From Anaerolineae bacterium (GTDB taxonomy: Bacteria; Chloroflexota; Anaerolineae; UBA4142; SHND01): a stretch of 35,407 nucleotides of DNA. The position numbers and the translations under genes were made by a program. Shown here piece by piece: positions 357 to 33,652 of the stretch. Under the pieces are notes generated by a model that was given only the letters and a program-made list of their open reading frames with translations, did not search any database and was not told where the DNA came from. Within the stretch, counting starts at the first letter, position 1; each line of letters begins with the position of its first letter. The DNA is taken from the NCBI GenBank assembly GCA_020851635.1, contig JADZCJ010000012.1, forward strand, positions 1-35,407, read 5' to 3'.

Positions 357-1415
357 TCAGGTTGTTTGGATACGCTTTCGATTCGTATCAAAAAAGTGTA
401 ATTTGTCGTTCGCAATGCTGAATTTTACGACGTCGCCGATTTTGGCATCGGACATGCCGGGAACCAACGCGATCAAAGTCTGATTGCCGGATTTAAGGTG
501 GAGCACTGTCTCTACACCCAACGGTTCCGCGAGCACGACCTCTGCTGGAAATTGGCCGTCGGCTGCCAGACGCACATCCTCGGGGCGAACGCCCAACAAG
601 AATGCTTCGGGCAGCGCGTGCGTCGTAACCACGCGCACGTCGCTGCCGGTAATGACCAGAGAGCCATTTTCGCGGTGCGCCTGAAACAGATTGATGCGCG
701 GCGAACCGACCAGCTGCGCCACGAACGTGGTTGCGGGACGGTCATAAATGTCATCCGCGGTGCCCTCTTGGACAATTTGTCCCTTGTTCAAGACGGCAAT
801 GCGGTCTGCCATTGTGAGCGCTTCAATCTGGTCGTGCGTGACATACAGAATTGTCTTGCCGAGCGTCTTTTGAAGATGTTTCAGTTCCACGCGCAGCGAT
901 TCGCGCAGTTTGGCGTCGAGATTCGAGAGCGGCTCGTCCATCAAAAAGACGCGCGGATCGCGCACGATGGCGCGACCGATGGAAACGCGCTGCATCTCGC
1001 CGCCCGAAAGCCGCGCCGTTTTACGGTCCAGCAAATGCGAGATACGCAAAATCTCGGTGACCTGTTCAATCTTGCGCTTGATGTCTGTTTCGGGGATGCG
1101 ATGCACGGGCGAGCGCAGGGGAAAGGCAAGATTGTCATAGACCGACATGGTGGGATAGAGCGAATACTGCTGAAACACAAACGCCACATCACGGTCTGCC
1201 GGGGTGAGCGCATTGACCGGTTCGTCGTCGAATGCCACATTGCCTGCATCTTGCTTTTCAAGTCCCGCAATCACGCGCAGGGTCGTAGTCTTGCCTGCGC
1301 CCGTTTGCCCCAAAAGCACAAAAAATTCTCCGTCTTTGATGTGAAACGACACATCGTCCAGCGCGGTGACCGTGCGGACTTTCTTGGTGATGTTTGATAG
1401 CGTGACATTACTCAT
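357..1415 (-). CDS. Sugar ABC transporter ATP-binding protein (MalK/UgpC type), second ATPase of the operon
   Basis: This 352-residue ATPase powers sugar import from the cytoplasmic side of the permease pair. Visible motifs are Walker A GQTGAGKT (about 36-43), Q-loop Q82, signature LSGGE (136-140), Walker B FLMDEP (157-162) and the H-loop in VTHDQ (His about 194). A C-terminal TOBE-like region follows from about 240, with the typical LLGVRPEDVRL phrase. The start at 1415 (MSNVTLSNITKK) is preferred over the longer reading from 1469, whose extra 18 residues come from repeat-like sequence and lack homology-like character. The gene overlaps the stop of the upstream ATPase gene by 8 bases, implying translational coupling. 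All catalytic motifs are intact, so it should be active. Together with the neighbouring ATPase it may form a heterodimer. The substrate is not evident from this subunit. Confidence 0.92.
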   Translation of the reverse strand: MSNVTLSNITKKVRTVTALDDVSFHIKDGEFFVLLGQTGAGKTTTLRVIAGLEKQDAGNVAFDDEPVNALTPADRDVAFVFQQYSLYPTMSVYDNLAFPLRSPVHRIPETDIKRKIEQVTEILRISHLLDRKTARLSGGEMQRVSIGRAIVRDPRVFLMDEPLSNLDAKLRESLRVELKHLQKTLGKTILYVTHDQIEALTMADRIAVLNKGQIVQEGTADDIYDRPATTFVAQLVGSPRINLFQAHRENGSLVITGSDVRVVTTHALPEAFLLGVRPEDVRLAADGQFPAEVVLAEPLGVETVLHLKSGNQTLIALVPGMSDAKIGDVVKFSIANDKLHFFDTNRKRIQTT

Positions 1416-2562
1416 AAGACTGGGAATGAGACACGGAAGATTGAGAATTGGAGACAGCGAGTCCGTCATTCGTCATTCGGCTTTGTTCCTGATGTTGGCG
1501 CAGCGCGGTCTCGTTTTGCGGATTGAAAAACCGCGCCATCTGCGCGTCCACGTCAAAACGAATATTGGCGCCGATGGGATAACGTTGACTACGGTCAGCC
1601 CGCACGTGCACCACGTTATCGCCCTCCATATTGAGATGCAGCATGGTGTACGAGCCGTGCATATGAGTTGCATACACCTGACCTTGCAGCATACCCTCCG
1701 GACTCACGTGCGCCGATTCGGGACGAAAACCCAAGATTACGTTTTCACCTCGCGTTATGGAATTTTGCCATCCGGGGGGCAGGGGGTATTGATTATCGCC
1801 GGGCAGCCGTACAATCCCCTCTGCATAATTCCCCTGCACCAAATTCATTCCGGGACTGCCGATAAATTTTGCGACAAACAGATTGGCGGGGTTGTAATAG
1901 ACCTGGGTGGGGGTGTCTGCCTGCTGGACCACCGCCGCCGACATGACCACGATGCGGTCACCCATCGCCATCGCTTCGATCTGATCGTGCGTCACATAGA
2001 CCGTCGTCGCCTTGAGCCGCAATTGCAGTTCGCGGATTTCCGCGCGCATTGATTCGCGCAAATCGGCGTCGAGCGCGCCCAACGGTTCGTCCATCAAAAA
2101 GGCAGCCGGCCGCCGCACGAGCGCGCGAGCAAGCGCCACGCGTTGTTTGTCACCGCCCGACAAGCCGCCCGGACGCTTGTTGAGCAAATGTCCGATGCGC
2201 AACAAGTCCACCACGAGCTTGAGCCGTTCATCTATCAATTCCTTTGTTTCGCCCTGCGCCTTGAGCGGAAAGGCAATATTGTCGCGCACGCTCATGTGCG
2301 GGTAGAGAGCATAGAACTGAAATACAAACGCAATATCACGCGCGCTCGGGTGGAGCCACGTCACATTCTTGTCGTCGAGCAGAATCTGCCCCGCCGTCAC
2401 CGTTTCCAGCCCTGAAATCATTCGCAGGGTGGTCGTTTTGCCGCAGCCCGAAGGACCGAGCAAAACAATAAATTCGCCGTCGGAAATGGTCAGGTCGAGC
2501 GGCTTGACCGCATACGCCTCGCCGAATCTCTTTTCAACTTGCTTGAGCTGAATCGTTGCCAT
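1408..2562 (-). CDS. Sugar ABC transporter ATP-binding protein (MalK/UgpC type), first ATPase of the operon
   Basis: This 384-residue ATPase starts MATIQLKQVEKRF. It has Walker A GPSGCGKT (36-43), Q-loop Q82, signature LSGGD (134-138), Walker B FLMDEP (155-160), H-loop His192 and a TOBE-like C-terminal region with ILGFRPE. ATG at 2562 is chosen because the 12 residues encoded upstream are not family-like. It lies between the MalG-type permease gene and the second ATPase gene. The last 23 or so residues, from RMTNDG onward, are rich in Ser, Gln and Asn. They are encoded by a stretch with GTCATTC repeats and look like intergenic sequence that became coding, not part of the fold. Two non-identical ATPases in one carbohydrate transporter operon are known from systems such as rhizobial GlpSTPQV and suggest a heterodimer. 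Confidence 0.92.
   Translation of the reverse strand: MATIQLKQVEKRFGEAYAVKPLDLTISDGEFIVLLGPSGCGKTTTLRMISGLETVTAGQILLDDKNVTWLHPSARDIAFVFQFYALYPHMSVRDNIAFPLKAQGETKELIDERLKLVVDLLRIGHLLNKRPGGLSGGDKQRVALARALVRRPAAFLMDEPLGALDADLRESMRAEIRELQLRLKATTVYVTHDQIEAMAMGDRIVVMSAAVVQQADTPTQVYYNPANLFVAKFIGSPGMNLVQGNYAEGIVRLPGDNQYPLPPGWQNSITRGENVILGFRPESAHVSPEGMLQGQVYATHMHGSYTMLHLNMEGDNVVHVRADRSQRYPIGANIRFDVDAQMARFFNPQNETALRQHQEQSRMTNDGLAVSNSQSSVSHSQSYE
1465..1478. repeat. Tandem heptamer (GTCATTC)x2, repeat-derived sequence
   Basis: Two perfect copies of GTCATTC lie side by side at 1465-1471 and 1472-1478, inside the 3' end of the first ATPase gene. The same word occurs in the arm TTCGTCATTC at 2656-2665 and, inverted, in GAATGACGAA at 2634-2643. 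The surrounding bases (1425-1465) are a run of A/G-rich short words with little coding character. It resembles short repetitive spacer DNA. Confidence 0.4.
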
Positions 2563-2633
2563 GGAAAAATGAGAGGACGGTGGCTTGCAGATTTTCACCG
2601 CCTTGGGCGGCAGGAAAAACCTGCAATCCTGAC

Positions 2634-2682: not shown

Positions 2683-3687
2683 TTATTGTCGAATTGCTCC
2701 GAATGTGACGCCGCGCAGCAAATACTTGCGCAGCGCAAAGGTGATAATGACGACGGGGATCAAAAACAAGAGCGACCCTGCCGCAATCGCAGACCATTCG
2801 ATGCCGCCGCGTCCCAGCATCGAGGGAATCGAGGGCGGCGCCGTCCGTGCCCGTTCGCTCGTCATCATCAACGCAAACGCATATTCATTCCACGCAAAAA
2901 TGAGGCAAAACACGGTCGTCGCCGCAATCCCCGAAACCGATTGCGGAAGGACGATTTTGAGAAATGTCTGGATGCGGCTGTAGCCGTCAACAAGCGCCGC
3001 CTCTTCATATTCGCGCGGGATTTCGTCAAAGAAACCCTTCATCAGCCACACGGCGAACGAGAGATTAAACACCGTATACAAGAGAATCAGTCCCAAATGC
3101 GTGTCATACAGCCCCATCTGGCGATACATCAAAAAGAGTGGAATTGTCACGACAACGGCGGGCAGCATGCGCGTGCTCAGAATAAAAAAGAGGAGATCAT
3201 CCTTGCCGGGCATATTAAAGCGGCTGAACGCATACCCTGCCAGCGTGCCCAACAGGACGGAGAGGGCAGTTGACACACCCGCGACGATCAATGAATTGGT
3301 CAGCCGCCCCACATATGCGCTGGGTCCGGTGATTTCCTGTCCTGTATCGAACGCCAGCCGCTCAAGAAAACCCATTGCGCCTGCATCCGCTTTGGCTTGA
3401 AATTCAGCCATCCGCCCGGGCGCAATGATGGCGCGGTCGGTAAAAAGATATAGAAATCCTTCCAGCGTCGGTTGAAAGAATACTTTGGGCGGGCTGGCGC
3501 TCACATCGGGGCGTGATTTGAACGCGGTCGCCAACATGACAAAGATGGGGATGAGCATGATGAGCGCCACAATCACCACCACCATGGCGCGCACCGCGCC
3601 GGTCGTCCGGGCGCCGGGGCTTACTTTGTCAACACGGATTGACTCGACGACGGGACGGCGGGGACCCGTTTCTGCGAAACTCGCCAT
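2683..3687 (-). CDS. Carbohydrate ABC transporter permease, MalG type
   Basis: This 334-residue inner-membrane protein has a basic N-terminus, a first membrane helix at about 28-53, and a block of further helices from about 130 to the end. The cytoplasmic EAA loop for contact with the ATPase is visible as EYEEAALVDGYSRIQTF followed by LKIVLPQ. The segment between helices 1 and 2 is longer than in MalG: about 35 extra residues around FTDRAIIAPGRMAEFQ form an enlarged periplasmic loop. The start at 3687 has a purine-rich GGGGAGGG ribosome-binding site inside the end of the upstream permease gene, with only 3 bases between the two genes. The two permeases must form the heterodimeric channel. The C-terminus (LLRGVTFGAIRQ) has the GA-x-K/R ending usual for the family. 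Confidence 0.92.
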   Translation of the reverse strand: MASFAETGPRRPVVESIRVDKVSPGARTTGAVRAMVVVIVALIMLIPIFVMLATAFKSRPDVSASPPKVFFQPTLEGFLYLFTDRAIIAPGRMAEFQAKADAGAMGFLERLAFDTGQEITGPSAYVGRLTNSLIVAGVSTALSVLLGTLAGYAFSRFNMPGKDDLLFFILSTRMLPAVVVTIPLFLMYRQMGLYDTHLGLILLYTVFNLSFAVWLMKGFFDEIPREYEEAALVDGYSRIQTFLKIVLPQSVSGIAATTVFCLIFAWNEYAFALMMTSERARTAPPSIPSMLGRGGIEWSAIAAGSLLFLIPVVIITFALRKYLLRGVTFGAIRQ

Positions 3688-3690
3688 GGG

Positions 3691-4653
3691 CTAGCCCTCC
3701 CCTTTGATTTTGTTCAAGTTGCGAATATACAAGTTGCTGATGGCGATGACGATAATCAAAATGATGTATGCCAGCGCGCTCGAATACCCGGAGCGAAACT
3801 GTCCAAGAAACGCGACGCGATACAAATACACGGCAATCAATTCCGTCTGATTCCCGGGACCACCGCCTGTCAGCCCCATCACCAGGTCAAAGGATTTGAG
3901 CGCCTCGATCGTCCGAAAGAGCACCGCGATCAGCAGCAGCGGCATGACCTGCGGCAGGGTAATGTGCCAGAATTGAAACCATGAGCTCGCCCGATCAATC
4001 GCCGCGGCTTCGTACAAATAGTCGGGAATGGCATTCAGCCCCGACAGCACCAGCAGCATGACGAACGGACTCCACATCCAGACATCAACCAGAATGACCG
4101 ACGCCAACGCGATCCCCTGGATTGCCTGATTGCCAAAGCGGCTCGCCAGCATGTCCAATTGTCCGCTCTCGCCCATGCCGACCAGATAATTAAAATAGCC
4201 GAAATTCGGATTGTACATCATCTTCCAAAACAGACCGACGACGACGGGCGACAACATCATCGGCACCAGAATCAACGTAGTCACCAGACCACTGCCGCGG
4301 AATTTTCCGCGGATGAGCATCGCCAACCCAAACCCCACAACCGTTTGCAGCGCGACCGAAAACAGCACATAGCGCCCCGTTGTGGTGAACGCTTCCCACA
4401 GCGAAGGGTCCGTCAGAATGGTGGCGTAATTCTCGATCCCGATCCAGACCGGCGCAGTATTTCCCGTGGCGCGATAGTTGGTGAATGAGAGAAAGAGGGA
4501 ATAAAAGAGCGGAAAGAAATTAAAGGCAATGAGCAACACGAGGGTGGGCCAAATGAACAAGTTCATGATGGCGCGATCGCTCAATTGCCGCGCCACTGCG
4601 CGACCCGAGGAAATCGGATTGTTGACGGAAGAATCAGCTGTTATAGATGCCAT
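3691..4653 (-). CDS. Carbohydrate ABC transporter permease, MalF type
   Basis: This 320-residue protein has a helix at about 30-54 (FIWPTLVLLIAFNFFPLFYS) and five more hydrophobic segments. The EAA loop is YEAAAIDRASSWFQFWHI followed by TLPQV, at about 220-245. The GGGPGNQTE phrase after it is a hallmark of CUT1-family MalF-like permeases. ATG at 4653 is the first good start, although it has no clear Shine-Dalgarno. The gene lies 129 bases after the solute-binding protein gene, separated by a strong stem-loop, and 3 bases before the MalG-type gene. Substrate choice cannot be read from the sequence. Confidence 0.92.
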   Translation of the reverse strand: MASITADSSVNNPISSGRAVARQLSDRAIMNLFIWPTLVLLIAFNFFPLFYSLFLSFTNYRATGNTAPVWIGIENYATILTDPSLWEAFTTTGRYVLFSVALQTVVGFGLAMLIRGKFRGSGLVTTLILVPMMLSPVVVGLFWKMMYNPNFGYFNYLVGMGESGQLDMLASRFGNQAIQGIALASVILVDVWMWSPFVMLLVLSGLNAIPDYLYEAAAIDRASSWFQFWHITLPQVMPLLLIAVLFRTIEALKSFDLVMGLTGGGPGNQTELIAVYLYRVAFLGQFRSGYSSALAYIILIIVIAISNLYIRNLNKIKGEG

Positions 4654-4782: not shown

Positions 4783-6210
4783 TTATTGGCTCTTGATATA
4801 GCCCGCGTCTTTGAGAATCTTGTCGTGCTGCGTGGCAATGGAATCCATAGTTTCCTGGGCGGTCCCCTGCCCTTCAAGAATGAATTTGCTGAGCTCTGTC
4901 TGTGACACTTGCAGCAGCTGACCAAATTCCGGAATATTCCAGAAATCCTTGACGAACGTCATGGTTTCTGCAAAGGCGGGGTTGTATGGCTGCGCCTTTA
5001 AGAATGTTTCGGTTTCGAGAACTTTCGAGTTGCAGGTGTAACCGCCGAGCTCGGCCCATTTTGCCTGATTTTCTTCCGTGGCGAACCAGGAAATAAAATC
5101 GCGCATCGCTTGCTTGCGCTCGTCGCTGATAAAACTGATGATGCTCATGCCCTGACCCCCCAGCGCCGCGCCCCGATCGCCATTGGGACCTTCCGGGTTT
5201 GGAAAGAAACCGGTTGTGGCGGCATAAGGGTTAGTCTGCGGATTGGTCAACGCCGGGAAAAAGGCAAAGTAATTCATGATCATTGCCGCTTTGCCACCGG
5301 TAAAGGCGTCGTTGGTCTCTTGAAAGAACGCGTTCGACAGACCGGGCGCCTGGCAGCAGTCATAGAGCTCTTTGTAGAGCTGCACGGCTTCGACGTTTTG
5401 CGGCGAATTCACCACGCCCACCACATTATTGTCGGCATCTTTCCAGTCGCCGCCGTAGGGGAACATGGTGTTTTCGATGCCCATCGTCAAGGCATCATAA
5501 TCTTTTTGGGTATAAATACCGACGCCATACAGCCCCTGGTCCGGGCGCGTAAAGAATTCGGCAATGTCCTTGAACTGCTTGTAATCCTTGGGCACGGCAA
5601 GATCATAACCGTACTTGGCTTTGAATGCCTCCATTTCCTTGGGGTCTTCAAAGAGGTCCTTGCGATACGCCCAACCGTCCGCGTCGCCTTCCGTCGGGTA
5701 CGCCCAGTATTTGCCCGAGCCGGTCGGATATTCACCATAATAAGTGAGTGTCGCAGGGGTAACGGTCTTGGCGATGCCCGTGCTGTTCATAAAGTCGGTC
5801 AGGTCCACATAGTAACCGGACGTGGCGCCCGTGCCGATCCATTGCGAATCGCCGATGACTCCATCCCATTCGGCGGACCCTGCAGCCATCGCCGTGAAAA
5901 AGCGATCGCCAAACGTGCCCCAGGGTTCCTGAACGATCGTAACTTTGACGCCCGTTTCCTGTTCATACAGGTTCCCCATCTGCTGTAGATAGTTGGCGGG
6001 GTCCCACTGCGCCCAGAGGATTTTCAATTCGCTGACGCCACCGGCAGCGGGCGCAGCGGTCGGCTGTGCTGCAGGGGCTTCGGTGGCTTGCGCGGCGGGC
6101 GCGGAGGTCGGGGGTGCGGAGGTCGGCTGCACCGCTGCCGGCGCGGCGCACGCGGCAGCGATTGCCAACATTACAAGCAAGGCGATACCGAGCATTACTT
6201 TATTTAACAT
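4783..6210 (-). CDS. Sugar ABC transporter solute-binding lipoprotein (family 1)
   Basis: This 475-residue extracellular binding protein captures the sugar and delivers it to the permeases. Residues 1-21 are a lipoprotein signal peptide (MLNKVMLGIALLVMLAIAAAC), with Cys21 as the probable lipidation site. Its -3 position is Ala, so the lipobox is slightly atypical. Residues 22-58 are a flexible linker of repeated PTSAP/AAQ/TEAP units, a style common in Chloroflexota lipoproteins. The mature domain shows family-1 features: ILWAQWDPANYLQQMGNLYE, TVKVTIVQEPW-like second strand, and the GGKAAMIMNYF hinge strand. The start has a strong GGAGGAG ribosome-binding site a few bases upstream. It is the first transporter gene after the regulator, with a stem-loop downstream. 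Phrases such as VIGDSQWIGTGATSGYYVDL might help family placement, but the ligand is unknown. Confidence 0.93.
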   Translation of the reverse strand: MLNKVMLGIALLVMLAIAAACAAPAAVQPTSAPPTSAPAAQATEAPAAQPTAAPAAGGVSELKILWAQWDPANYLQQMGNLYEQETGVKVTIVQEPWGTFGDRFFTAMAAGSAEWDGVIGDSQWIGTGATSGYYVDLTDFMNSTGIAKTVTPATLTYYGEYPTGSGKYWAYPTEGDADGWAYRKDLFEDPKEMEAFKAKYGYDLAVPKDYKQFKDIAEFFTRPDQGLYGVGIYTQKDYDALTMGIENTMFPYGGDWKDADNNVVGVVNSPQNVEAVQLYKELYDCCQAPGLSNAFFQETNDAFTGGKAAMIMNYFAFFPALTNPQTNPYAATTGFFPNPEGPNGDRGAALGGQGMSIISFISDERKQAMRDFISWFATEENQAKWAELGGYTCNSKVLETETFLKAQPYNPAFAETMTFVKDFWNIPEFGQLLQVSQTELSKFILEGQGTAQETMDSIATQHDKILKDAGYIKSQ

Positions 6211-6215
6211 CTTCT

Positions 6216-6296
6216 CTCCTCCATTGGAATCTAAAGTGAACCGGTCTTGGTGAATGGGGGTTACGGTTCTCGATTGAACGCACCACCTCCTTTTTT
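6216..6296 (-). promoter_or_regulatory. Leader of the binding-protein gene with two Shine-Dalgarno-like sites
   Basis: On the minus strand, AAAAAAGGAGGTG occupies 6296-6284, while the working ribosome-binding site GGAGGAG is at 6222-6216, next to the ATG at 6210. The upstream site is a near-perfect anti-16S match but has no start codon at ideal spacing. A GTG directly after it could open a 29-codon frame that overlaps the binding-protein start. It may be a ribosome standby site or leader-peptide start. No convincing -35/-10 pair was found between 6297 and 6372. Confidence 0.3.
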
Positions 6297-6369
6297 GCAG
6301 ATTGCAGAGCGAGAATTTCCGGGCGCATACCCTTTCAGGGTGAATTGGCGACGCGGGATAGGCAAGACG

Positions 6370-6393
6370 CGTTCACGCCGCAAGACGTGAACG
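6370..6393. repeat. Inverted repeat at the 3' end of the ROK regulator gene
   Basis: CGTTCACG (6370-6377) and CGTGAACG (6386-6393) are perfect 8-base arms with an 8-base spacer. The repeat overlaps the last codons and stop of the regulator gene. Overlapping direct repeats of GCAAGACG occur at 6362-6369 and 6380-6387. No T-run follows in either direction. It could be an RNA hairpin that limits readthrough from the regulator into the transporter genes, or a protein-binding palindrome. Confidence 0.4.
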
Positions 6394-7608
6394 ACTGAGC
6401 GGCTGGCGCAGCATCTGGTCATAAACCATCGCGACCGCGCCCATGACGCAGGCATCCGAACCATATGCGGCAACAACTATGTGCGTCGAATGGGCTGCCC
6501 AGCGCAGCGCGCGTTCGTTGATCGTTTGTTGAATGACCGGCAGCAGAAACTCTTTGGCAAGACTCATGATCCCACCCAGAACAACCCATTCGGGATTCAA
6601 CACATTCACCAAATTCGCCAAGCCGATGCCGAGATACTTGGCGGTGTCATACAGCGCCTGTCGCGCAATCGGGTCGCCCTCTTGGGCGGCGCGCACAATG
6701 ACAGGGATGGTGAGTGATGCGCTTCGGTCGTCATAGCAACGCGCCAGCGTGGACTTGTTGCCCGCGGCAATACATTCCTGTACGCGTCGAAACAACGCCG
6801 ATTGGGACGCCACCGTTTCCCAGCATCCGCGATTGCCGCAGGCGCATGGCAAACCATTCGGGTCCAGACTCATGTGTCCCACTTCACCCGCAAAACCGGA
6901 CCCGCCGGTATAAATGCGACCGTCGAGGACCAGTCCGCCCCCAATCCCCATACCTGCGCTCACATACAAGACATTGCTCGAACCGCGTGCCACACCAAAA
7001 AAAGTTTCCCCAAACGCGGCAATCGAAGCTTCATTGTCCACATAGACCGGAAAGGAAAATCGTTCGCGGAGCATTGCGAGAAGCGGAACATTTTCCCAGC
7101 GCAAATTCGGAGCATACAGCAGAGTGCCCGATTCGAGATCAATCAGACCCGGCACGCCAAATGCCAGACCGAGAATTTCGAGCGAGCGCAGGTGCGCCTG
7201 CTCGACTGCCGCATCTATATTGACAAAGGCGCGGCGCAAAATCGCCGTCCGTTCTTGATCATGATCGGTGCGTTCCTGATGACGCCAGACAACGCGCGCC
7301 GCAAAATCCGTGAGCACGACGGAAATGAAATCAACGCCAATTTCAACACCGACGATGCCGCCCGCGTGGGGATTTAACTGGAGGAGGATGCCGGGGCGAC
7401 CGGTACTTTTTTTGCCGACCCCGGTCTCGGTCACAAACCCCGCTTCAATGAGCTGTTGGACCAGACTCGAAACGGTGGTCTTGTTGAGACCGGTCGCAAC
7501 GGCAAGCGCTGCGCGTGAAAGAGGAGAGTGGTCGCGCAGTGCATTGAGGATGATCGAGAGGTTAATCTCGCGAATGAGGGCTTGGTCGCCGGTCCGGGTA
7601 CGCCGCAT
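6373..7608 (-). CDS. ROK-family transcriptional regulator (XylR/NagC type)
   Basis: This 411-residue regulator has an N-terminal winged helix-turn-helix (about 18-70: LNALRDHSPLSRAALA, then TGLNKTTVSSLVQQLIEAG) ending in the GRPG wing. A ROK sugar-kinase-like domain follows from about 83. Visible ROK hallmarks are GMGIGGGLV, EVGH and the zinc motif CACGNRGC (about 255-262). The catalytic Asp of ROK kinases (DNDAN motif) is replaced by Glu in VDNEASIAAFGE, as expected for a sensor rather than an enzyme. ATG at 7608 or GTG at 7614 could be the start. It is transcribed toward the sugar transporter genes. An XylR-like palindrome 81 bases upstream suggests it represses itself, and probably the operon, until a sugar ligand binds. 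Confidence 0.92.
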   Translation of the reverse strand: MRRTRTGDQALIREINLSIILNALRDHSPLSRAALAVATGLNKTTVSSLVQQLIEAGFVTETGVGKKSTGRPGILLQLNPHAGGIVGVEIGVDFISVVLTDFAARVVWRHQERTDHDQERTAILRRAFVNIDAAVEQAHLRSLEILGLAFGVPGLIDLESGTLLYAPNLRWENVPLLAMLRERFSFPVYVDNEASIAAFGETFFGVARGSSNVLYVSAGMGIGGGLVLDGRIYTGGSGFAGEVGHMSLDPNGLPCACGNRGCWETVASQSALFRRVQECIAAGNKSTLARCYDDRSASLTIPVIVRAAQEGDPIARQALYDTAKYLGIGLANLVNVLNPEWVVLGGIMSLAKEFLLPVIQQTINERALRWAAHSTHIVVAAYGSDACVMGAVAMVYDQMLRQPLSRSRLAA

Positions 7609-7688
7609 AGTCACTGTCTATGTGATGACCACGTCATTGTGATATTGGCTTGCCAGTCCGTTCTTGCGCACTGGATTCGGAGCGAAGG

Positions 7689-7713
7689 TTAGTTTGTTCT
7701 GTCAACAAACAAA
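7689..7713. promoter_or_regulatory. XylR-type operator palindrome
   Basis: TTAGTTTGTT (7689-7698) is followed by a 5-base spacer and AACAAACAAA (7704-7713). Nine of the ten arm positions pair. This matches in layout and almost in sequence the Bacillus XylR operator, whose arms are TTAGTTTGTT and AACAAACTAA around a 5-base centre. On the minus strand it contains a perfect TTGACA (7705-7700) facing the ROK regulator gene, although no good -10 box stands at the right distance. The divergent kinase gene begins 160 bases away. Confidence 0.75.
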
Positions 7714-7812
7714 GCCGATTGTAGCAGAATCCATCTGCCGCGTCAATGAATTTCCGGAATTCTTTATGTCACAAGCCCATTCTCCACCCGTTCGGGCGGG
7801 CTAAAATTGCTA

Positions 7813-7842
7813 TTGCGCGCAGACGGGCGTCACGTTTATAAT
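7813..7842 (+). promoter_or_regulatory. Candidate promoter of the histidine kinase gene
   Basis: A perfect TATAAT (7837-7842) stands 31 bases before the ATG at 7874. A weak -35-like TTGCGC (7813-7818) precedes it with an 18-base spacer. The predicted leader is about 25 bases and has no clear Shine-Dalgarno sequence. Confidence 0.5.
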
Positions 7843-7873
7843 TAGCGCCACTCTCAATCGTATTCCGGGTTCT

Positions 7874-10800
7874 ATGGAACTCTTTCTTGTCAATCCGCGC
7901 TCTACCGACCTTCGACCCGCCCTCAGCGCCCTGCCCGATGTGAGGGTGCATTCTCTCGCGCCGCGCACAACCGCCGAGCTCATTCAGCAGCTCACCCAAA
8001 ACAGATTTGATGCTGCGCTGATCGCGGCTGACGCACATGGACTGCGCCCGCGCACGATCCTGCGTCTGTTTCACCAACATGCCCCGAACTGCCCGGTTAT
8101 TTTGCTCGACCCCGCCTTCCGGGGAACGCATGACAAATCAGAGCAAAACGGGTTTGACGCGGTCGCCTCGCCCAAGACCTACAAACGCCGATGGCGCGCC
8201 CTTTTGGAACACGCCACTCGCCACGCCAAAACGCGCGCCCAATCCACGACACTGACCTCCGAAAAACCCGCGCCCAAAAGCTCGCGCCGCCCCAACGCCT
8301 CAGCACGGTATCGCGCGTTGGTGGATACCGCGAGTGATGCAATTTTTGTGCTTGATGCGCGCGGGAACCTCCTTTACGCCAACCAAACGGCGGAGCGTCT
8401 CTTTGGCTATCCCAAGATGGCGCAGGCGGGCATGTCTGTCTTTGATTTGCTGGACCTGTCCAATTCACCCTATCAGGAGGCATTTCGCGCGTATCTGGAA
8501 ACCGGGCACACCTCCATTCACTGGCATCTGGTGCAAATGTGGGGTTGCACCGCAGACAAGCAGCGCATCCCCATCGAGCTGACTTTTAGTCATTTTACCG
8601 AGAACGGCGAACGTCGTTTTACTCTGTTTATACGCAACGTCTCGGAGCGCAGTCGCATCGAAGATGCTCTCCGCGCGTCTCAAAAGTACGCCGAAAATAT
8701 TGTCGAAAGTTCGCTCGACATGATTATCGCGGCGGACGTGAATCGCCGCATCATCGAGTTTAACCGCGCCGCAGAGCTCGCGTTCGGGTATGACCGGCAC
8801 GAGGTCTTTGGTCAGGACGTCCGCATGTTGTATGCCGCCAAAGTCGAAGGACAAGACGTGTTTGACGATATGGTGCGCTATGGCAAGACGGTGCGCCACA
8901 TTATCAACGTCCGCAAAAACGGCGAAACCTTTCACACCCTGCTTTCGGCATCCACCCTGCTTAACGTTGAGGGGCAGGTCATTGGCTATATGGGCGTCTC
9001 GCGCGACATTACGGTCGAACAGGAATTGGAAAAAAATCTGCGCGAGCGCATCGAACTGCTGGAAGCGTTGAGCGAACTGGATCAAGCGCTGGCAACGCCA
9101 CTCCCCTTGCGCGAGCTCTTGCCGATTGTGACGGAACACGCCTCGCTTCGCCTGAATGGTTCCGCCAACGCCTTGTGGCTGTACGAACCGGATGCGCTGC
9201 AGCTGCGCCTCGTCGTGATGAACAACACGTGGCAGCACAACGGGCAGGTCATGCCGCTCGGCAAGGGTCTTGCCGGACGCATCGCCGCAGCGCGCCACCT
9301 TGAATGGAACGCCGAGTCGCGCGCCGAGCCGCTTTTGCTTATTGATCCCATCCGGGAGCCATTCGATGCAATGATCGGCGCGCCGCTGCTCTATCACCGC
9401 GAATTGTTGGGCGTGCTGCTCGTCGCGCGACGCGGGCAAGCGGTTTCTCTGACCGATGGCACTGCTTTTTCGAGCGCAGAGGTCCAGGCGCTGAATCTGG
9501 TCGCGAGTCGCGCGGCAAGCGCCATCCACACCACCCATTTGTGGGAAGAAACGACCCATCGCGCCGAACAACTGGCGCTGCTCTATGATGCGGGGCTGAC
9601 GCTCAACAATGTGCTCGAACCGCGCACACAGCTGGAATTTCTCTCTAAAATTGCCATGCGTGTGCTGAACGCCGAACGCGCCGCCTTTTTCCGGCATGAT
9701 GCCGATTCAGGCACGCTCGATTTCGAGTTTGGTTTGGGCGGGGGCGCAGAATTTTCCGCGCAGATGCAGCGCACGAGTTGTCGGGCGGGTGACGAAAGCC
9801 ATTTTGCGGGGTGGGTGAGCGAACGGCGTGTGCCATTGAATCTTAGAGACCTGCGCGAGGATGCGCGGTGGCAGGACATGGACCCGCAAATTCGTTCGGG
9901 GCTGTGGGTGCCGGTCGAGCACGGCGGCGCGCTCCTCGGTGTGCTCGCCGTCTTTGCCGCGCCGCCATACAGTTTCAATCACTCGCACGAGCGCTTGCTG
10001 ACCCTGTTTGCAAATCAAGCGGCGGTGGCGCTCGAAAACGGTCGCATTTTTGGCGCGCTCAAACTGCGAATTGACGAATTGGAAGCGCTCAATCAAATGT
10101 CCAAAGCATTGAGCGCGGTCACGACACAGGAGGAAATGCTGCCGCAGTTTCTGGATGCGGCGCTGAACGCGTTGAGCGCACACGCCGGCGCGATCTTGTT
10201 GTATGACTCGACGATTGGGCGTCTCAAGTTGGCAGAGGCGCGCGGCGGCGTGGATGCGCTGCACGAAACGCTCGATCCCGCACAGGGCATGGCAAACCGC
10301 GTCCTTGAATCCGGACATGCCTATGTTTCTCCCGGCGCGCAAGGCGCGGGAAACCCCTTTCCGTCGGGCTGGAATGGCATTTTTGCGCCTCTGCGCAGCG
10401 GCGATGAAAAAATCGGCGTGCTGGTGCTCGGGGTAAAGTCACCGCGTCCCCTGGCGCGCGACCATGTGCAGCTCGTTTCGATTCTGTCCGAAATGGCGGG
10501 AAATACCCTGCACCGTCTCGGACTGCTGCGTTCGCTGGCGGACGCGTATTTCCAGGTCGAACGCGCCAAGCGCGAGTGGGAACAATCGGTTGACACGATT
10601 GATGAAGCCATCTCCATGGTGGACGCCGACGGCAAGATTCTGCGGGTGAATCACACGCTCGCCGTCTGGACGAACAGCACGCCCCAGGAATTGCTCGGAC
10701 AAGACTGCTGTAAGGTCATTGATGCGTGTGTCCAGCCCCCGGAGCATTGCCCCCACGCGCAACTGATGCGAACACGCGACCGGATCTATCGCGCCGAGTT

Positions 10801-11617
10801 CCAATCCGAACATCTCGGCAAGAGTCTCAGTTTTACGAGCTATCCGCTGTATGATGCCCAGCATCAATTTGCCGGGGCGGTCAACGTGCTCAAGGATATT
10901 TCTGTCGAAAAGGATTTGCAGGCGCAGTTGATTCAATCCGAAAAAATGGCGGCGACCGGTCGCCTGGCTGCCTTGATCGCGCACGAAATTAACAATCCCT
11001 TGCAAGGCATTCAGGGCAGTCTGGAACTGGCGCACAATTCAAGGCGGGACCTGCAAAAACAAGAACGCTATCTCACTCTGGCTAAAGGCGAATTGGATGG
11101 GCTGGTTGCCACTGTGCAGCGGATGTTGGATTTCTATCGTCCGGCAAAAGGCGTGCGCGCGCCGGTCGAGCTGCGAGGGTTGGTGGATGACGTGCTCGCG
11201 CTGACCGCCAAGCGCATTTCAAGCAGCAGCATCCGCGTCAATGTGGACCTCGAGCCGAATCTGCCGTTGGTCAACGTGGTCGGCAACCAAATCAAACAGG
11301 TGCTGCTCAATTTGCTCTTGAATGCCATCGAAGCGATGCCGGACGGCGGCACGTTGAAAATTCAAGCGCGCCGCCAGGACGACGGCATCAAAATCATGTT
11401 CAAAGATACGGGCAAGGGCATTCCGCCCGCGCAATTGGATAAAATTTTCGAACCGTTTTTTACGACCAAACCCAATGGCACGGGCTTGGGCTTGGGCGTC
11501 TGTCACAACATCGTCACACATCACGGAGGACGCCTGACGGTTACCAGCGCGTTGGGTCGCGGCAGCACCTTTACAGTATGGCTGCCCGACAGCACGCAGG
11601 CAGGAGGGAATGTGTGA
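7874..11617 (+). CDS. Soluble hybrid-like PAS/GAF sensor histidine kinase
   Basis: This 1247-residue kinase lacks membrane helices and should act in the cytoplasm. It begins with a degenerate receiver-like region (about 1-115, FDAALIAAD then CPVILLDP). Two PAS domains follow (about 142-260 and 265-390), then three GAF-like domains (about 400-555, 565-730 and 735-880). A third PAS (about 895-1015) carries clustered cysteines C945, C946, C952 and C959 (last in CPH). The transmitter has the H-box LIAHEINNPLQG with His1037. Its ATPase domain shows NLLLNAIEAMPDG, DTGKGIP and GTGLGLGV, all intact. The gene overlaps the response-regulator gene by 4 bases (GTGA), so the pair is cotranslated. The signal is unknown; the cysteines could bind metal or sense redox state, but PAS domains with CxxCP-like motifs are common and often uncharacterised. 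Confidence 0.93.
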   Translation: MELFLVNPRSTDLRPALSALPDVRVHSLAPRTTAELIQQLTQNRFDAALIAADAHGLRPRTILRLFHQHAPNCPVILLDPAFRGTHDKSEQNGFDAVASPKTYKRRWRALLEHATRHAKTRAQSTTLTSEKPAPKSSRRPNASARYRALVDTASDAIFVLDARGNLLYANQTAERLFGYPKMAQAGMSVFDLLDLSNSPYQEAFRAYLETGHTSIHWHLVQMWGCTADKQRIPIELTFSHFTENGERRFTLFIRNVSERSRIEDALRASQKYAENIVESSLDMIIAADVNRRIIEFNRAAELAFGYDRHEVFGQDVRMLYAAKVEGQDVFDDMVRYGKTVRHIINVRKNGETFHTLLSASTLLNVEGQVIGYMGVSRDITVEQELEKNLRERIELLEALSELDQALATPLPLRELLPIVTEHASLRLNGSANALWLYEPDALQLRLVVMNNTWQHNGQVMPLGKGLAGRIAAARHLEWNAESRAEPLLLIDPIREPFDAMIGAPLLYHRELLGVLLVARRGQAVSLTDGTAFSSAEVQALNLVASRAASAIHTTHLWEETTHRAEQLALLYDAGLTLNNVLEPRTQLEFLSKIAMRVLNAERAAFFRHDADSGTLDFEFGLGGGAEFSAQMQRTSCRAGDESHFAGWVSERRVPLNLRDLREDARWQDMDPQIRSGLWVPVEHGGALLGVLAVFAAPPYSFNHSHERLLTLFANQAAVALENGRIFGALKLRIDELEALNQMSKALSAVTTQEEMLPQFLDAALNALSAHAGAILLYDSTIGRLKLAEARGGVDALHETLDPAQGMANRVLESGHAYVSPGAQGAGNPFPSGWNGIFAPLRSGDEKIGVLVLGVKSPRPLARDHVQLVSILSEMAGNTLHRLGLLRSLADAYFQVERAKREWEQSVDTIDEAISMVDADGKILRVNHTLAVWTNSTPQELLGQDCCKVIDACVQPPEHCPHAQLMRTRDRIYRAEFQSEHLGKSLSFTSYPLYDAQHQFAGAVNVLKDISVEKDLQAQLIQSEKMAATGRLAALIAHEINNPLQGIQGSLELAHNSRRDLQKQERYLTLAKGELDGLVATVQRMLDFYRPAKGVRAPVELRGLVDDVLALTAKRISSSSIRVNVDLEPNLPLVNVVGNQIKQVLLNLLLNAIEAMPDGGTLKIQARRQDDGIKIMFKDTGKGIPPAQLDKIFEPFFTTKPNGTGLGLGVCHNIVTHHGGRLTVTSALGRGSTFTVWLPDSTQAGGNV

Positions 11618-17100: not shown

Positions 17101-20100
17101 ATGATAGGGTTAAGCTCTTTTGCGCTCGTCCTGCAACGAACCTATCGTAGGGGACAAGCACAACACGATTCTCATTTCCTGCCCGCCATGACGGAATTTG
17201 GACGTTTGCATCTTGAAAGTTGGTTCCGCACCCGTGCGGTCCTGTTCGCCGTTGGGTTTTTGCTCACACTCGCTGTGACGCAAATGGCGTCCATACAGCT
17301 TTTCGTCCCCTTGCTTGTCGTCTTTGCCCTTGACGTCGTTCTTTCGGCGTTTGGCATCGCCCTCGCAAAACGCTTTACCGCGCCCCACGTCGTGCGCGTG
17401 CTGCTGCTCCTCGATCTGCTGTTGACCTTTTTGATCGTTTTTTACGCCGGCGGTTTGGATGGAGGGTTCACGGCGATTTACCTCATCGTCGTGCTTGGCG
17501 CGCTGCTCATGCTGGGTCAGCGCGCGGCGTTCCATTTTGCCGTGCTGGCTTCTCTCTGCTTTGCTACCCAGCTGCTGCTCGAGGTTGCCGGCATCCATTC
17601 CTTTCAGGGACCCTCTTCGACGCTGATCGAAATCATTGGACAGGGCGTAGTGCTGGCAGTTTTGATTACGCTGGCTCTGTTTTTGGCAAACGCCTCTGCC
17701 AATTTGAACTTGAAGCTGGCAGTAGACAAGGATGCGGCGCAGGCGGAACGCGCTCGGGCAGAACGCCTCCAGCGACAATGGGCGCTGATTCACAACGTTG
17801 CGCTGCGAGTGCAGGAATCTACGTCGCCCAGCCAAGTCTATGTCTCGATTGGCGATGAACTCGAGCGGATCGGGCTGCATTGCGCCATTCTGGAATGGGC
17901 ACAGCCCAATGTCTCTTTTCGCATCTCGCATATCTCGTCGGACAAGCAAGTGCTGGAAAGCGCGCAAGGCATGGGCATTGACCCATACTCGCTCCGGCTC
18001 GAACTCAAGAACGCGCCTCAGTTGGCGCGCGCCGTCGAAACGCGCATGCCGGAACTGGTGGTCAATGTGGAAAAAGAGGCGGCATCCCTTTTGCCCCACA
18101 CAGGGTCCGATGGAGTTATGCAAATGCTCGCGCTGTTTGAGGCAGATACCTTGATCAATGCGCCACTCGTAACCCAGGACTCGGTGCGCGCCATTTTGAT
18201 CGTCTGGGGCAAGGACCTGGGCGAACATGACAAAGCGCCCCTCGCCGCGCTGGCTCAACAAGCCGCTTCGGCGCTGGAAAAGGCGGAGCTTTTGACCGAG
18301 CAACAGAAACGCGCCGCGCAGCTCGAGTTGGTGAGCAATATTGCCGCGCGTGTCAGCGCGGCAGAGAATGCAGAGCAAATCATTCAGCCGCTGGTCCAAC
18401 AAATTGGTAACCGCTTTCATTACCAGGCGGTCAGTGTCTTGTTGATGAACGACGCCGGCGACCAACTTGCCGTCGCCGCCAGTTATTCCGTTTTGAGTGC
18501 AACACAATTGACAGACCCGCACTACCCTCTGGAAAGGGGCATCCTGGGTTGGGTCGCCAGGCATGGCGAAACATATCTGGCGCGCGATACCCGGACCGAC
18601 CCGATCTACCATTCACCTCATCCCGATAATGACCCCATCCACTCGGAACTGGTCATTCCTCTGCGCGCGCAAAACAAACTGCTCGGTGTGCTAGACCTGG
18701 AAAGCACCGAGCCGGATGCTTTTGATGTCAGCGATGTAAATGCGCTGACCCTGTTGGCAGACCAGGTTTCCGCCGCGCTCACAAAAACACGGGCGCTGGA
18801 GTTGGAGAGCAAGCGCGCCGCGCAGTTGGCGCTGGTCAGCGAAATCGCCGCGCGCGCGGGAGCATTTTCCGACCCGGACGCCATCATCAGCGCGATGGTG
18901 CAGCTTGTACAAGAGCGCTTTGGGTATCATCATGTCTGTCTCTCGCTCTACGACGCGGCACGGGATGAATTGGAACAGAGTTTTGCCGCCGGCGCGAATG
19001 CCGCGCAGTGCTCGCCCGGCGTCAGGTGGAATACCGGAGAGACGTTGATTGGACTGGCAGCGCGCACCCGTCAAACGACATACAGCGGTGATCTCAAAAA
19101 CGATGCACGCAATGGACCTGCAGACGGCGCGGGAAATTCCGCGCTGTGCGTGCCGCTTGTTAGCGACAGGACTGTCCTCGGGGTGCTGAAGGTGGAAAGC
19201 GACAGACTGTATGCGTTTGACTCGAATGATATCGGCGCGATGGAAACGCTGGCGAATCAGATGGCAGCTGCGCTGGAAAAAGCGCGCTTGCTCCAGGCGG
19301 AACGACGCCGCACCGCCCAGTTGGGATTAGTCAACCGCATTGCCTCGCGCACGGCGCGCTTGATACCCGCAACGCAGCTGATGCGCGATGCGGTTGCGTT
19401 GATTCGCACCCAATTCGGATACTATAACGTGGCGGTCTTTGTGACGATGGAGGATCAGCCCGGCGCCCGGCTGGCAGCCAATGCGGGCCCGCTGAGTATG
19501 TTTCTCCAAGAGCCGTTTGTTATGACGGCGGGCATCATTGCGTATGTGTGCGCAACCGGCAACACCTATCTGTGTTCCAATCCGCACCACGATCCACACT
19601 ATGTTTCACCTTTCGCCCGGCGCGCCGATGACCCGGTGCGGTCGGAATTGGCTATTCCCCTGCGGCGGGGTGAGAGCATCATCGGCGTGCTCGATATTCA
19701 AAGTGAACAAGCCAAGGTGTTTAGCGCGGGGGACATTAGCGCCCTGGAAGCGCTCGCCGACCAACTTGCGGCTGCGCTGGAAAACGCGCGCCTGTACGAG
19801 TCAGGGGCACAGCACGTCGCCCAACTGGAGGCAGTGCGGGTGCTCTCGCTGGAATTGACCGCCGAACGCGATGTGGATGTGCTGCTAGCTTCCATTGTCA
19901 CGAGCGCCGAGCAGTTGGTCCAGGCGGAAGGGGCTTTGCTCGAGATCGTGGATGAAACGCGCGGTGACCTGGTGGTGCGGATTTCTCATAATTTGCAGCA
20001 CAATTATGTGGGATATCGGCTCAAAATGGGTGAGGACGTTTCGGGGCGCGTTGTTGCAACGGGCGAGCCGGTCCTGATCGCGGATTATGCCAATTGGGAG

Positions 20101-30094: not shown

Positions 30095-30496
30095 CTAATG
30101 GGATTCCATTTGTTGAATCCTGCGATTAGATTCATAGTATTCGATGAGCGTGGGTGACCAGCGAATGATTTTGCCCATGCGCGCTGCCTTTGATTTCAAG
30201 AGATCATTTTGCAGCACGGCGCGGGCGAGCTGAGGAATTTCGAGGGAACGCTCTTTTGGCAAGTCAAACACAAGAATGCAAAAACGCTGTGAGGGCTGGA
30301 CACGAAGCCAAAAGTCGTCCGCGTTAATGGTGATGAAGGTGGCTTGATCGGCTCGCTGCAGCAACGAGGGTATTGCGTCGTCTTTGATTACCGTACCCGG
30401 CCGCAATTCGCGGATCGAGACGACCTGTCCTTGATACCATTGTGCGATCGCGTCGCGGATGCGACGGTCTTGCAGATTCTCGTCGAGAACAATCAT
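30095..30496 (-). CDS. DUF5615 PIN-like protein, putative toxin
   Basis: This 133-residue protein has the layout of DUF5615 PIN-like proteins: an N-terminal MIVLDENLQD with acidic residues Asp5 and Glu6, a central VIKDDAIPSLLQRAD, and ITINADDFW with paired aspartates. These acidic residues would coordinate a metal in a PIN-like nuclease fold. The C-terminal part (from about 100) is a helical extension. The gene starts 3 bases after the DUF433 gene, the usual antitoxin-first order of VapB45/VapC45-like pairs. RNase activity is inferred from the family and not visible directly. Confidence 0.82.
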   Translation of the reverse strand: MIVLDENLQDRRIRDAIAQWYQGQVVSIRELRPGTVIKDDAIPSLLQRADQATFITINADDFWLRVQPSQRFCILVFDLPKERSLEIPQLARAVLQNDLLKSKAARMGKIIRWSPTLIEYYESNRRIQQMESH

Positions 30497-30499
30497 CTG

Positions 30500-30811
30500 T
30501 TATGCGGCGAGGGAAAGCGGGCGGGTCGTTTCCACAAACGCCTGATTCGCCAGTTCAATGGCTTCGGCAATCGCATCTGTCGAAAGATGGCTGGATTCGT
30601 AGTTTTTGACCAGTATCTCGGGACTGTCGCCTTGTGCCAGTCTTGCCAGCACCATGCTCACTTCCAGTCGTGTATACTTGAAGGTGGGTCGCCCGCCGCA
30701 CACGCCGGGCGCGACGACCACGTACTCGCCCAGTGGATAGTACTCGTAGGGCTCGCCCCCAACAACTTCCTTGACCAGTCGCGGTTTATTGGATTCCATC
30801 GGATGATTCAT
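30500..30811 (-). CDS. DUF433 family protein, putative antitoxin
   Basis: This 103-residue protein carries the DUF433 signature: VVVAPGVCGGRPTFKYTRLEV followed by a helical part with LAQGDSPEILVKNYESSHLS and DAIAEAIELANQAF. Such proteins are small helix-turn-helix partners of PIN-like toxins, expected to bind DNA and the toxin. ATG 30811 has GAGGTGG a few bases upstream. GTG at 30823 would add four residues and would be nearly leaderless. The gene has its own extended -10 promoter and precedes the PIN-like gene by 3 bases. Confidence 0.82.
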   Translation of the reverse strand: MNHPMESNKPRLVKEVVGGEPYEYYPLGEYVVVAPGVCGGRPTFKYTRLEVSMVLARLAQGDSPEILVKNYESSHLSTDAIAEAIELANQAFVETTRPLSLAA

Positions 30812-30830
30812 CGCCCACCTCACTGCCTAA

Positions 30831-32116: not shown

Positions 32117-33652
32117 ATGGCATATCTCCTCGGCATTGACGTGAGCACCACCGCCACCAAGGCGCTGGTGATTGACGAGCGCGGCGCGGTTGCCGCCACC
32201 GCGAGCGACGAATACGAGTTTTTCACGCCGCGTCCCTTGTGGGCGGAACAAAACCCCCACGATTGGTGGCGAGCGTGTATCAACGTGGTCCGGCGTGTGC
32301 TGGAACAAGTGCCTGCGTCAGAGATTGCGGGCATCGGGCTGACGGGACAGATGCACGGCTTGGTGTTGTTGGATGCGGACGGTGACGTGCTGCGCCCGTG
32401 CATCATGTGGAACGACCAGCGCACCGCCAAACAATGTGCGGAAATCACCGAGCGCGCGGGCGGCGCATCAAGTCTGCTCCAACTCATCGGCAACCCCGTC
32501 CTGCCCGGTTTTACCGCGCCCAAAATCTTGTGGGTGCGCGAGAACGAACCCGAGGTGTATGCGCGCGCCGCGCACGTCCTTTTGCCCAAGGATTATTTGC
32601 GCTACAAATTGACGAGCGCGTATGCGACCGAGATGTCCGATGCGTCGGGCACTGCGCTGTTGGATGTGGCGCAGCGCGCATGGTCGGACGATTTGCTCAA
32701 GGCGATCAACCTTCCCCGCGCGTGGCTGCCCGCGGTACACGAATCACCCGTCGTCAGCGCGAAAATTTCCGCACAAGCCGCGCTTGAGACGGGTTTGTTG
32801 CAAGGAACGCCCGTAGTGGGCGGCGGCGGCGACCAGGCGGCGCAAGCGGTGGGCACAGGGATTATCCGGCAGGGCATCGTCAGCGCCACGCTCGGCACAT
32901 CGGGGGTGGTGTTTGCCTCGTCCGACTCGTACCGGCTGGAACCGAACGGTCTGCTCCACGCATTTTGTCACGCCGTGCCGGGCAAATGGCACCTGATGGG
33001 CGTAATGCTGTCCGCTGCCGGTTCATTCCGTTGGTTTCGTGATGCGTTCGGCGCGGTAGAGCGCGAGCGCGCGCGGCTGGAAAACCGCGATGTGTATGAT
33101 ATTTTGACGGCGCAAGCGGCGCGCGTTGCGGCGGGCAGCGAGGGCTTGATCTTTTTGCCGTATCTTTCGGGTGAACGGACCCCGTATCCGGACCCGCACG
33201 CGCGGGGCACATTTTTTGGCATCACCCTGCGGCATGGCAAAGAGCATTTTGTGCGCGCGGTGTTGGAGGGAGTCGCGTATGGCTTGTGCGATTCGCTGGA
33301 ACTGATGCGCGCGTTGGGGTTGGACATTTCACAGGTGCGCGCGTCGGGCGGCGGCGCGCGCAGTCCGTTGTGGCGTCAAATTCTCGCCGATGTGTTTGAT
33401 TCCGCAATCGCTTTGGTGAATATCACCGAGGGCGCGGCGTTCGGCGCGGCGCTGCTGGCGGGAGTGGGCGCGGGCGTGTATGCGAACGTCGAGGCGGCGT
33501 GTGCGGCGACCATCGTCGTCACCGACGCGGTCAAACCCGGACCCGCCGTGTCGGTGTATGGCGACTATTATCAGGTCTACCGCAAACTCTATCCCGCGCT
33601 CAAGGACTCGTTCCGACAGGTGGGTGAGGTCGCGGCGCGGCATGGATTCTAA
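32117..33652 (+). CDS. xylB: Xylulokinase (FGGY family)
   Basis: This 511-residue kinase phosphorylates D-xylulose to xylulose 5-phosphate for the pentose phosphate pathway. The first FGGY domain has the phosphate-binding GIDVSTTATKALVID and the xylulokinase-like GLTGQMHGLVLLD and IMWNDQRT. The probable catalytic base is Asp239 in GGGGDQAAQAVGTG. The second domain has LPYLSGERTPYPDPHARG and VRASGGGARSPLW, standard for XylB. Length is normal and no defect is seen. It follows the GH3 gene by 29 bases and ends in a strong terminator. Other FGGY kinases are possible, but the MHG and WNDQRT context favours xylulokinase. It fits with the XylR-like regulator and sugar transporter at the other end of the window, although they are about 24 kb apart. 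Confidence 0.9.
   Translation: MAYLLGIDVSTTATKALVIDERGAVAATASDEYEFFTPRPLWAEQNPHDWWRACINVVRRVLEQVPASEIAGIGLTGQMHGLVLLDADGDVLRPCIMWNDQRTAKQCAEITERAGGASSLLQLIGNPVLPGFTAPKILWVRENEPEVYARAAHVLLPKDYLRYKLTSAYATEMSDASGTALLDVAQRAWSDDLLKAINLPRAWLPAVHESPVVSAKISAQAALETGLLQGTPVVGGGGDQAAQAVGTGIIRQGIVSATLGTSGVVFASSDSYRLEPNGLLHAFCHAVPGKWHLMGVMLSAAGSFRWFRDAFGAVERERARLENRDVYDILTAQAARVAAGSEGLIFLPYLSGERTPYPDPHARGTFFGITLRHGKEHFVRAVLEGVAYGLCDSLELMRALGLDISQVRASGGGARSPLWRQILADVFDSAIALVNITEGAAFGAALLAGVGAGVYANVEAACAATIVVTDAVKPGPAVSVYGDYYQVYRKLYPALKDSFRQVGEVAARHGF

Follow-up and report, generated by a model that had tools for sequence, protein, structure and literature searches.

A putative ROK-family repressor with a XylR-type operator at the head of a sugar transporter operon in an Anaerolineae bacterium

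Introduction

In an Anaerolineae bacterium of the phylum Chloroflexota, a gene for a ROK-family regulator is preceded by a palindrome that closely resembles the operator of XylR, the xylose repressor of Bacillus. Is this palindrome an operator of the neighboring regulator, and if so, which genes and which sugar would it connect? The original prediction, made from the letters alone, was that the regulator represses its own gene through a near-perfect XylR operator, responds to xylose or a related pentose, and uses a DNA code conserved across phyla. The window considered here is the whole stretch of 35,407 nucleotides (GenBank assembly GCA_020851635.1, contig JADZCJ010000012.1, positions 1 to 35,407), and its relevant features are collected in Table 1.

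Table 1. Features of the window bearing on the palindrome and its predicted targets
Feature	Position	Strand	Basis or remark
XylR-type operator, 10-5-10 palindrome	7689..7713	none	sequence match and conservation
-35 hexamer TTGACG, putative regulator promoter	7741..7746	-	conserved in L009, L010, L011
-10 hexamer TACAAT	7718..7723	-	17-base spacer, TG before; 4 bases from operator
Predicted transcription start	7711	-	7 bases past -10, within operator; inferred from promoter
ROK-family repressor (predicted), winged HTH, recognition helix GLNKTTVSSLV (residues 42-52)	6373..7614	-	
Extracellular sugar-binding protein (SBP_bac_1)	4783..6210	-	second gene of apparent operon
ABC transporter permease 1	3691..4653	-	
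ABC transporter permease 2	2683..3687	-	
MalK/UgpC-like ATPase 1	1408..2598	-	
MalK/UgpC-like ATPase 2	357..1469	-	
Xylulokinase XylB	32117..33652	+	TIGR01312, 580 bits (cut-off 380); not preceded by an operator

A XylR-type operator before a ROK gene

The palindrome reads TTAGTTTGTT-CTGTC-AACAAACAAA in the exact letters of the window, and a single arm base departs from symmetry. Taken simply as an inverted repeat, it does not stand out: six 10-5-10 repeats with one mismatch occur in the window, and resampled windows (n = 10) hold 0 to 5 each. Against the XylR consensus TTAGTTTGTT-N5-AACAAACTAA, it differs at only 1 of 20 arm positions. The yardstick for this comparison is the experimental xylA operator of Anaerocellum bescii (A. 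bescii), ATTAGTTTGTTTAATAAACAAACTAAG, described as bound in vitro by that organism's own ROK XylR (PMC12285236). At the composition of the window, about 5e-5 such one-mismatch sites are expected per 5.8 Mb, and the palindrome is the only site with at most one mismatch in its own 5.8-Mb genome; a scan of that genome at up to three mismatches to the consensus found none besides it. The second-best match to the consensus in the window has seven mismatches, and shuffles of the window gave no match within three mismatches of the operator. One further place in the genome, at C15:74552, has three mismatches when a laxer pattern is used; it falls within a reading frame of 516 aa and was taken as chance. 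The palindrome is real, and its match to the XylR operator is far beyond chance. The assignment of the regulator was supported as well: the protein carries a ROK domain (PF00480, 233 bits, residues 88-398) and an N-terminal winged helix-turn-helix (MarR_2/HTH_24 at 22-63), the features that define the ROK family. Its fold is beyond doubt.

A TTGACG/TACAAT pair is the sole promoter-like match in 6180-7900, where no plus-strand promoter was called. Because shuffles yield 0.9 expected matches, the promoter call rests on conservation and not on the hit itself: the four ortholog-bearing members of the genus align with TTGAC[A/G]C, a 17-base spacer, TA[A/C]AAT and, 4 bases on, the operator. This conserved promoter adjoins the palindrome, and the operator therefore covers the predicted start site. 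Of 43 non-redundant site-bearing ROK genes from Chloroflexota and the class genomes (rows more than 85% identical dropped), 39 likewise have a promoter that matches at least 10 of 12 consensus bases. In 35 of the 43, the end of the promoter and the operator are -1 to 5 bases apart, where shuffles would give 0.23; among the 39 strong promoters, the gap is 4 in 21 genes and -1 in 12. The original prediction had also pointed to a TTGACA inside the palindrome, which is indeed present on the minus strand (7705-7700). As a -35 or other promoter element, however, it was rejected: genus mates show TTGCAC or TATTAT there and keep the TTGAC[A/G]-17-TA[A/C]AAT promoter upstream. The hexamer falls at the inner GTTG/CAAC of the Chloroflexota consensus, TTAGTTTGTTGNNNCAACAAACTAA (base counts excluding L027).

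Conservation of the site in two phyla

Within the genus, site and regulator go together. In G000, G001, G003 and G005, which have an ortholog with 63% identity or more, the site lies 55-135 bases before the extrapolated ROK start; the genus scan found none in G002 and G004, whose best ROK protein is 35% identical. The site is thus present in 4/4 genomes with the ortholog and in 0/2 without. The genus scan returned 5 sites in all versus 1 for the control; a three-mismatch site before a LacI-type gene in G005 may be due to chance. The expectation that the motif would recur near orthologous regulators was thereby borne out.

The same holds over larger distances. In 110 homology-fetched loci from Chloroflexota and Bacillota (1.197 Mb, some regions being reached twice), there are 49 sites with at most three mismatches and none for the reversed control. 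Forty-five are at most 450 bases 5ʹ of a ROK gene; of the remainder, one precedes a xylA-like gene and three lie a few kb away in Bacillus loci, probably at xynP. Many of the Bacillota sites are flanked by xylR on one side and by a xylose-isomerase cluster (c2) gene on the other, beside xylB. A scan of 396 genomes of the class found 33 sites with at most two mismatches, distributed over 31 genomes, versus 4 for the reversed control. Twenty-eight of them precede a ROK gene and one precedes xylA, two are at ribose-type ABC genes (G063, G066), and two are by genes without a match in the panel (G132, G254). In the wider search of the phylum (161 genomes, 21 of them inside the class), the site appeared in 1 of the 140 genomes beyond the class, again at a ROK gene, with 45% identity.

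One genome of the class, G063, has a second site (L153, position 6953) with two mismatches, located 289 bases before a row of ribose-type SBP, ATPase and permease genes. The same regulator may have a second target here.

Recognition helix and operator

The presence of the site follows the recognition helix. The comparison used homology-fetched regulators with 150 or more bases of upstream sequence: a site with at most three mismatches accompanies 42 of 64 with an LN[KR]xT[VI]SS helix versus 3 of 41 with other helices, counts that are inflated by kinship among the regulators. For Chloroflexota alone, the figures are 23 of 30 versus 2 of 20. Controls on the 64 upstream regions gave 0/64 in all 50 rounds of resampling and 0/64 with the reversed pattern. 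A site within four mismatches was absent in 12 of these 64 helix-bearing ROKs. Of 124 proteins, the helix table includes the 123 whose upstream sequence reaches 150 bases or more; loci found by pattern search are omitted from the 64/41 split. Rows dropped were 18 duplicate regulators reached twice and the partial genes of L062 and L107.

In a quick-method tree, its rows reduced from 124 to 109, a Chloroflexota clade (50 rows, SH-aLRT 100) and a Bacillota clade (41 rows, 95) are neighbors, joined by a fork with support of only 56. Because the two clades do not mix, nothing points to a recent transfer from one phylum to the other. As far as sequence comparison reaches, the DNA code is common to Chloroflexota and Bacillota and is paired with a near-identical recognition helix, in agreement with the predicted conservation across phyla.

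A single case is suggestive of helix and operator changing in step. The regulator of genus mate G001 has the helix GLTKVTVSALV instead of GLNKTTVSSLV, and its operator (L011/L184 15618-15642), TTAGTTAGTATTATTAACTAACTAA, shows an identical T-to-A change in each of its half-sites, TTAGTTAGT...ACTAACTAA. More broadly, it can be proposed tentatively, at less than even odds, that Anaerolineae kept one ROK operator code as the regulators came to serve several sugar systems (three or more transporter types), with two fixed promoter-operator phasings 5 bases apart and an operator that changes with the helix. If so, the helix-operator pairs of Chloroflexota would form a natural set for reading the ROK protein-DNA code.

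In Paenibacillus (L063, L067, L069, L072), XylR has the helix GLNKATVSNLV, and a shifted operator, TTTGTCTATTGGTTAAACAAAGTAA, possibly of other spacing, lies upstream of xylR. Additionally, a second Chloroflexota ROK group (L023, L027, L029, L031), with helices of the LSLATVSG / LSPATVTA kind, carries near its gene starts a related 25-base palindrome, roughly TTA(C/G)TT...TCANTGA...AAGTAA.

Genes under predicted control

From the ROK gene to ATPase 2, the intergenic gaps are 162, 129, 3 and 84 bases, followed by one overlap, and the stretch between the ROK and SBP genes has no called promoter or terminator on the minus strand. The gene order ROK-SBP-P1-P2-A1 is the same in L038, L040, L043, L044, L053 and L155. 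One operator can serve a regulator together with its ABC transporter. Self-repression, as originally proposed, is the likely arrangement, with the operator lying over the predicted start of the regulator's own promoter; as a regulon, however, the regulator's own gene was too narrow a choice, leaving out the binding-protein gene downstream in the same apparent operon. Because of that position, no second copy of the operator is expected at the SBP gene, and the observation that the window holds none stands: the best matches have 9 mismatches before the SBP gene, 10 before the GH3 gene and 11 before xylB. Elsewhere in the window are two very long genes, which we take to encode PAS/GAF-type sensor kinases (7874-11617, 1247 aa; 17101-23526, 2141 aa), and, on the minus strand at 30095-30823, two small adjacent genes that presumably resemble a toxin-antitoxin pair of the DUF433/DUF5615 type.

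Control of xylose catabolic genes in its own genome, a trait of XylR, was not found for this regulator. The palindrome stands at the head of the ROK-transporter operon, and no site stands at xylB, the GH3 gene or the xylA-like gene. Operator control of the last was rejected, its best upstream match having 10-11 mismatches. Among the six genus genomes, none yielded a xylA that exceeds the TIGR02631 cut-off. Moreover, class xylA genes in general were rejected as targets. In 249 genomes, 63 places exceed the cut-off, and of the 30 xylA loci retrieved from among these, 0 have a site with at most four mismatches directly upstream; two variants of palindromic appearance at xylA loci (L213, L207) have 5 and 6 mismatches.

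Some relatives suggest a link between this regulator family and xylose genes. In G324, a perfect site precedes xylA (536 bits, curated cut-off 447), which is followed by a xylA-like gene and xylB, and a further site with one mismatch precedes a ROK-SBP-ABC operon whose transporter genes are 65-70% identical to those of the window. In G157, a perfect site is followed by ROK-xylA-xylB. In G019, of the same order, a 56% identical ROK heads a xylA-like gene, xylB and ribose-type ABC genes; its helix is changed to GLNKATVSRLI, and no site with at most five mismatches was found there. Sites also precede xylA-like genes in L059 (three mismatches) and L052 (four mismatches). Downstream of the ATPase genes, G003 and G005 have an epimerase-like gene whose homologue in L040 is similar to D-psicose 3-epimerase (202 bits, below the cut-off of 300); the gene may point to another ketose or pentose.

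The xylA-like genes belong to a TIM-barrel family (L166 7381-8526, from contig C141 of the window's own genome; L185; L052) that scores about 92-99 bits to TIGR02631, for which the cut-off is 447, and adjoins xylB in relatives. This family may be an undescribed pentose isomerase.

Proposed mechanism and alternatives

The preferred reading, with a probability of about 0.78, is that the palindrome is the operator of the ROK repressor and mediates negative autoregulation of a sugar-uptake operon. From what the sequence offers, namely the site, promoter, gene order, conservation and helix association, we infer dimer binding, repression, co-transcription and an inducer. A repressor dimer would read both TTAGTTTGTT half-sites with its GLNKTTVSSLV helix. 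Since the operator starts 4 bases past the -10 hexamer and spans the predicted start, bound repressor would prevent either transcription start or promoter escape at the ROK-SBP-permease-permease-ATPase-ATPase operon. A sugar that enters the cell would then bind the ROK domain, the repressor would release, and transporter and regulator would be made. The relatives with xylA and xylB make xylose or a close pentose relative the probable inducer, and the xylB of the window likely shares a pathway with the ROK operon.

A rather unlikely alternative, but the one with the most in its favor, keeps the repressor and operator and changes the inducer: a XylR-coded regulator would serve a different pathway and respond to an epimerase-handled ketose, a hexose or a xylo-oligosaccharide. 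One operator code precedes several transporter types (the SBP family of the window, the c7 SBP family and ribose-type ABC genes), an epimerase-like gene lies near the operon end in G003, G005 and G324, the genome's own xylB and xylA-like gene are without a site, and the closest solved relatives of the SBP, at low score, bind maltose, trehalose or sorbitol. Against this weighs the company kept by close relatives outside the genus, which sit with xylA, xylA-like genes and xylB (G019, G324, G157).

The position of the site between the ROK gene and the divergent sensor-kinase gene at 7874 raises the further question of whether it controls the kinase, instead of or besides the ROK operon. This is improbable: G003 and G005 keep the site and the ROK gene but have another divergent neighbor, the conserved promoter at the operator points toward the ROK gene, and no promoter was called on the strand that the kinase would need, the plus strand, in 6180-7900. 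Finally, the occurrence of one-mismatch 10-5-10 repeats in resampled windows would fit a chance palindrome in an AT-rich stretch, yet a match to a known consensus that is kept at orthologs, with a reversed control near zero, leaves this account practically no room; cross-genome conservation refutes it.

Significance

By its sequence relationships, the ROK regulator probably works like XylR. Because control of xylA or xylB in its own genome was not found, it is filed as a ROK repressor with a XylR-type operator and is a candidate xylose repressor. The system looks genuine but ordinary in kind, a sugar repressor in a less studied phylum. A literature search on XylR or ROK with Chloroflexi, Chloroflexus or Anaerolineae gave no apparent description among the papers it covered; RegPrecise 3.0 is described as containing reconstructed regulons for 5 Chloroflexi genomes (PMC3840689). 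The result carries a repressor-operator pair that is well known and has been much engineered into a phylum in which few regulators have been studied. With it, regulons and transporter substrates can be predicted for uncultured members of the phylum, and the pairs of helix and operator provide a natural test of how ROK proteins recognize DNA.

Comparison with known systems

The XylR proteins of Bacillus and Anaerocellum are likewise ROK proteins, and their operator TTAGTTTGTT-N5-AACAAACTAA has the same arms and centre length as the site described here. The recognition helices are near-identical as well (GLNKTTVSSLV here, GLNKSTVSSQV in B. tequilensis L103), although the window protein is 32-42% identical to the fetched Bacillota proteins. 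Bacillus XylR sites are described as located between the -10 hexamer and the ribosome-binding site (PMC9104551), and the window site has this placement, just downstream of -10. In contrast, Bacillus/Anaerocellum XylR faces xylA, whereas the window ROK heads an ABC operon and leaves its own xylB and xylA-like gene without a site; furthermore, unlike the Bacillus/Anaerocellum operator, the Chloroflexota sites extend inward to GTTG-N3-CAAC. The DNA code is not fixed in ROK XylR proteins, because clostridial group-1 XylR, which likewise combines a ROK protein with a 25-base inverted repeat, is described with an operator of another code, ACTTattAAAnnnnnTTTaaAAAgt (PMC2873477).

In its gene setting, the window ROK, as the predicted local repressor of a sugar ABC operon, is like the ROK regulators of Thermotoga maritima. 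These are reportedly the subject of Kazanov 2013. In T. maritima, XylR, GluR, TreR and BglR are described as ROK local repressors of sugar ABC operons (PMC3750489).
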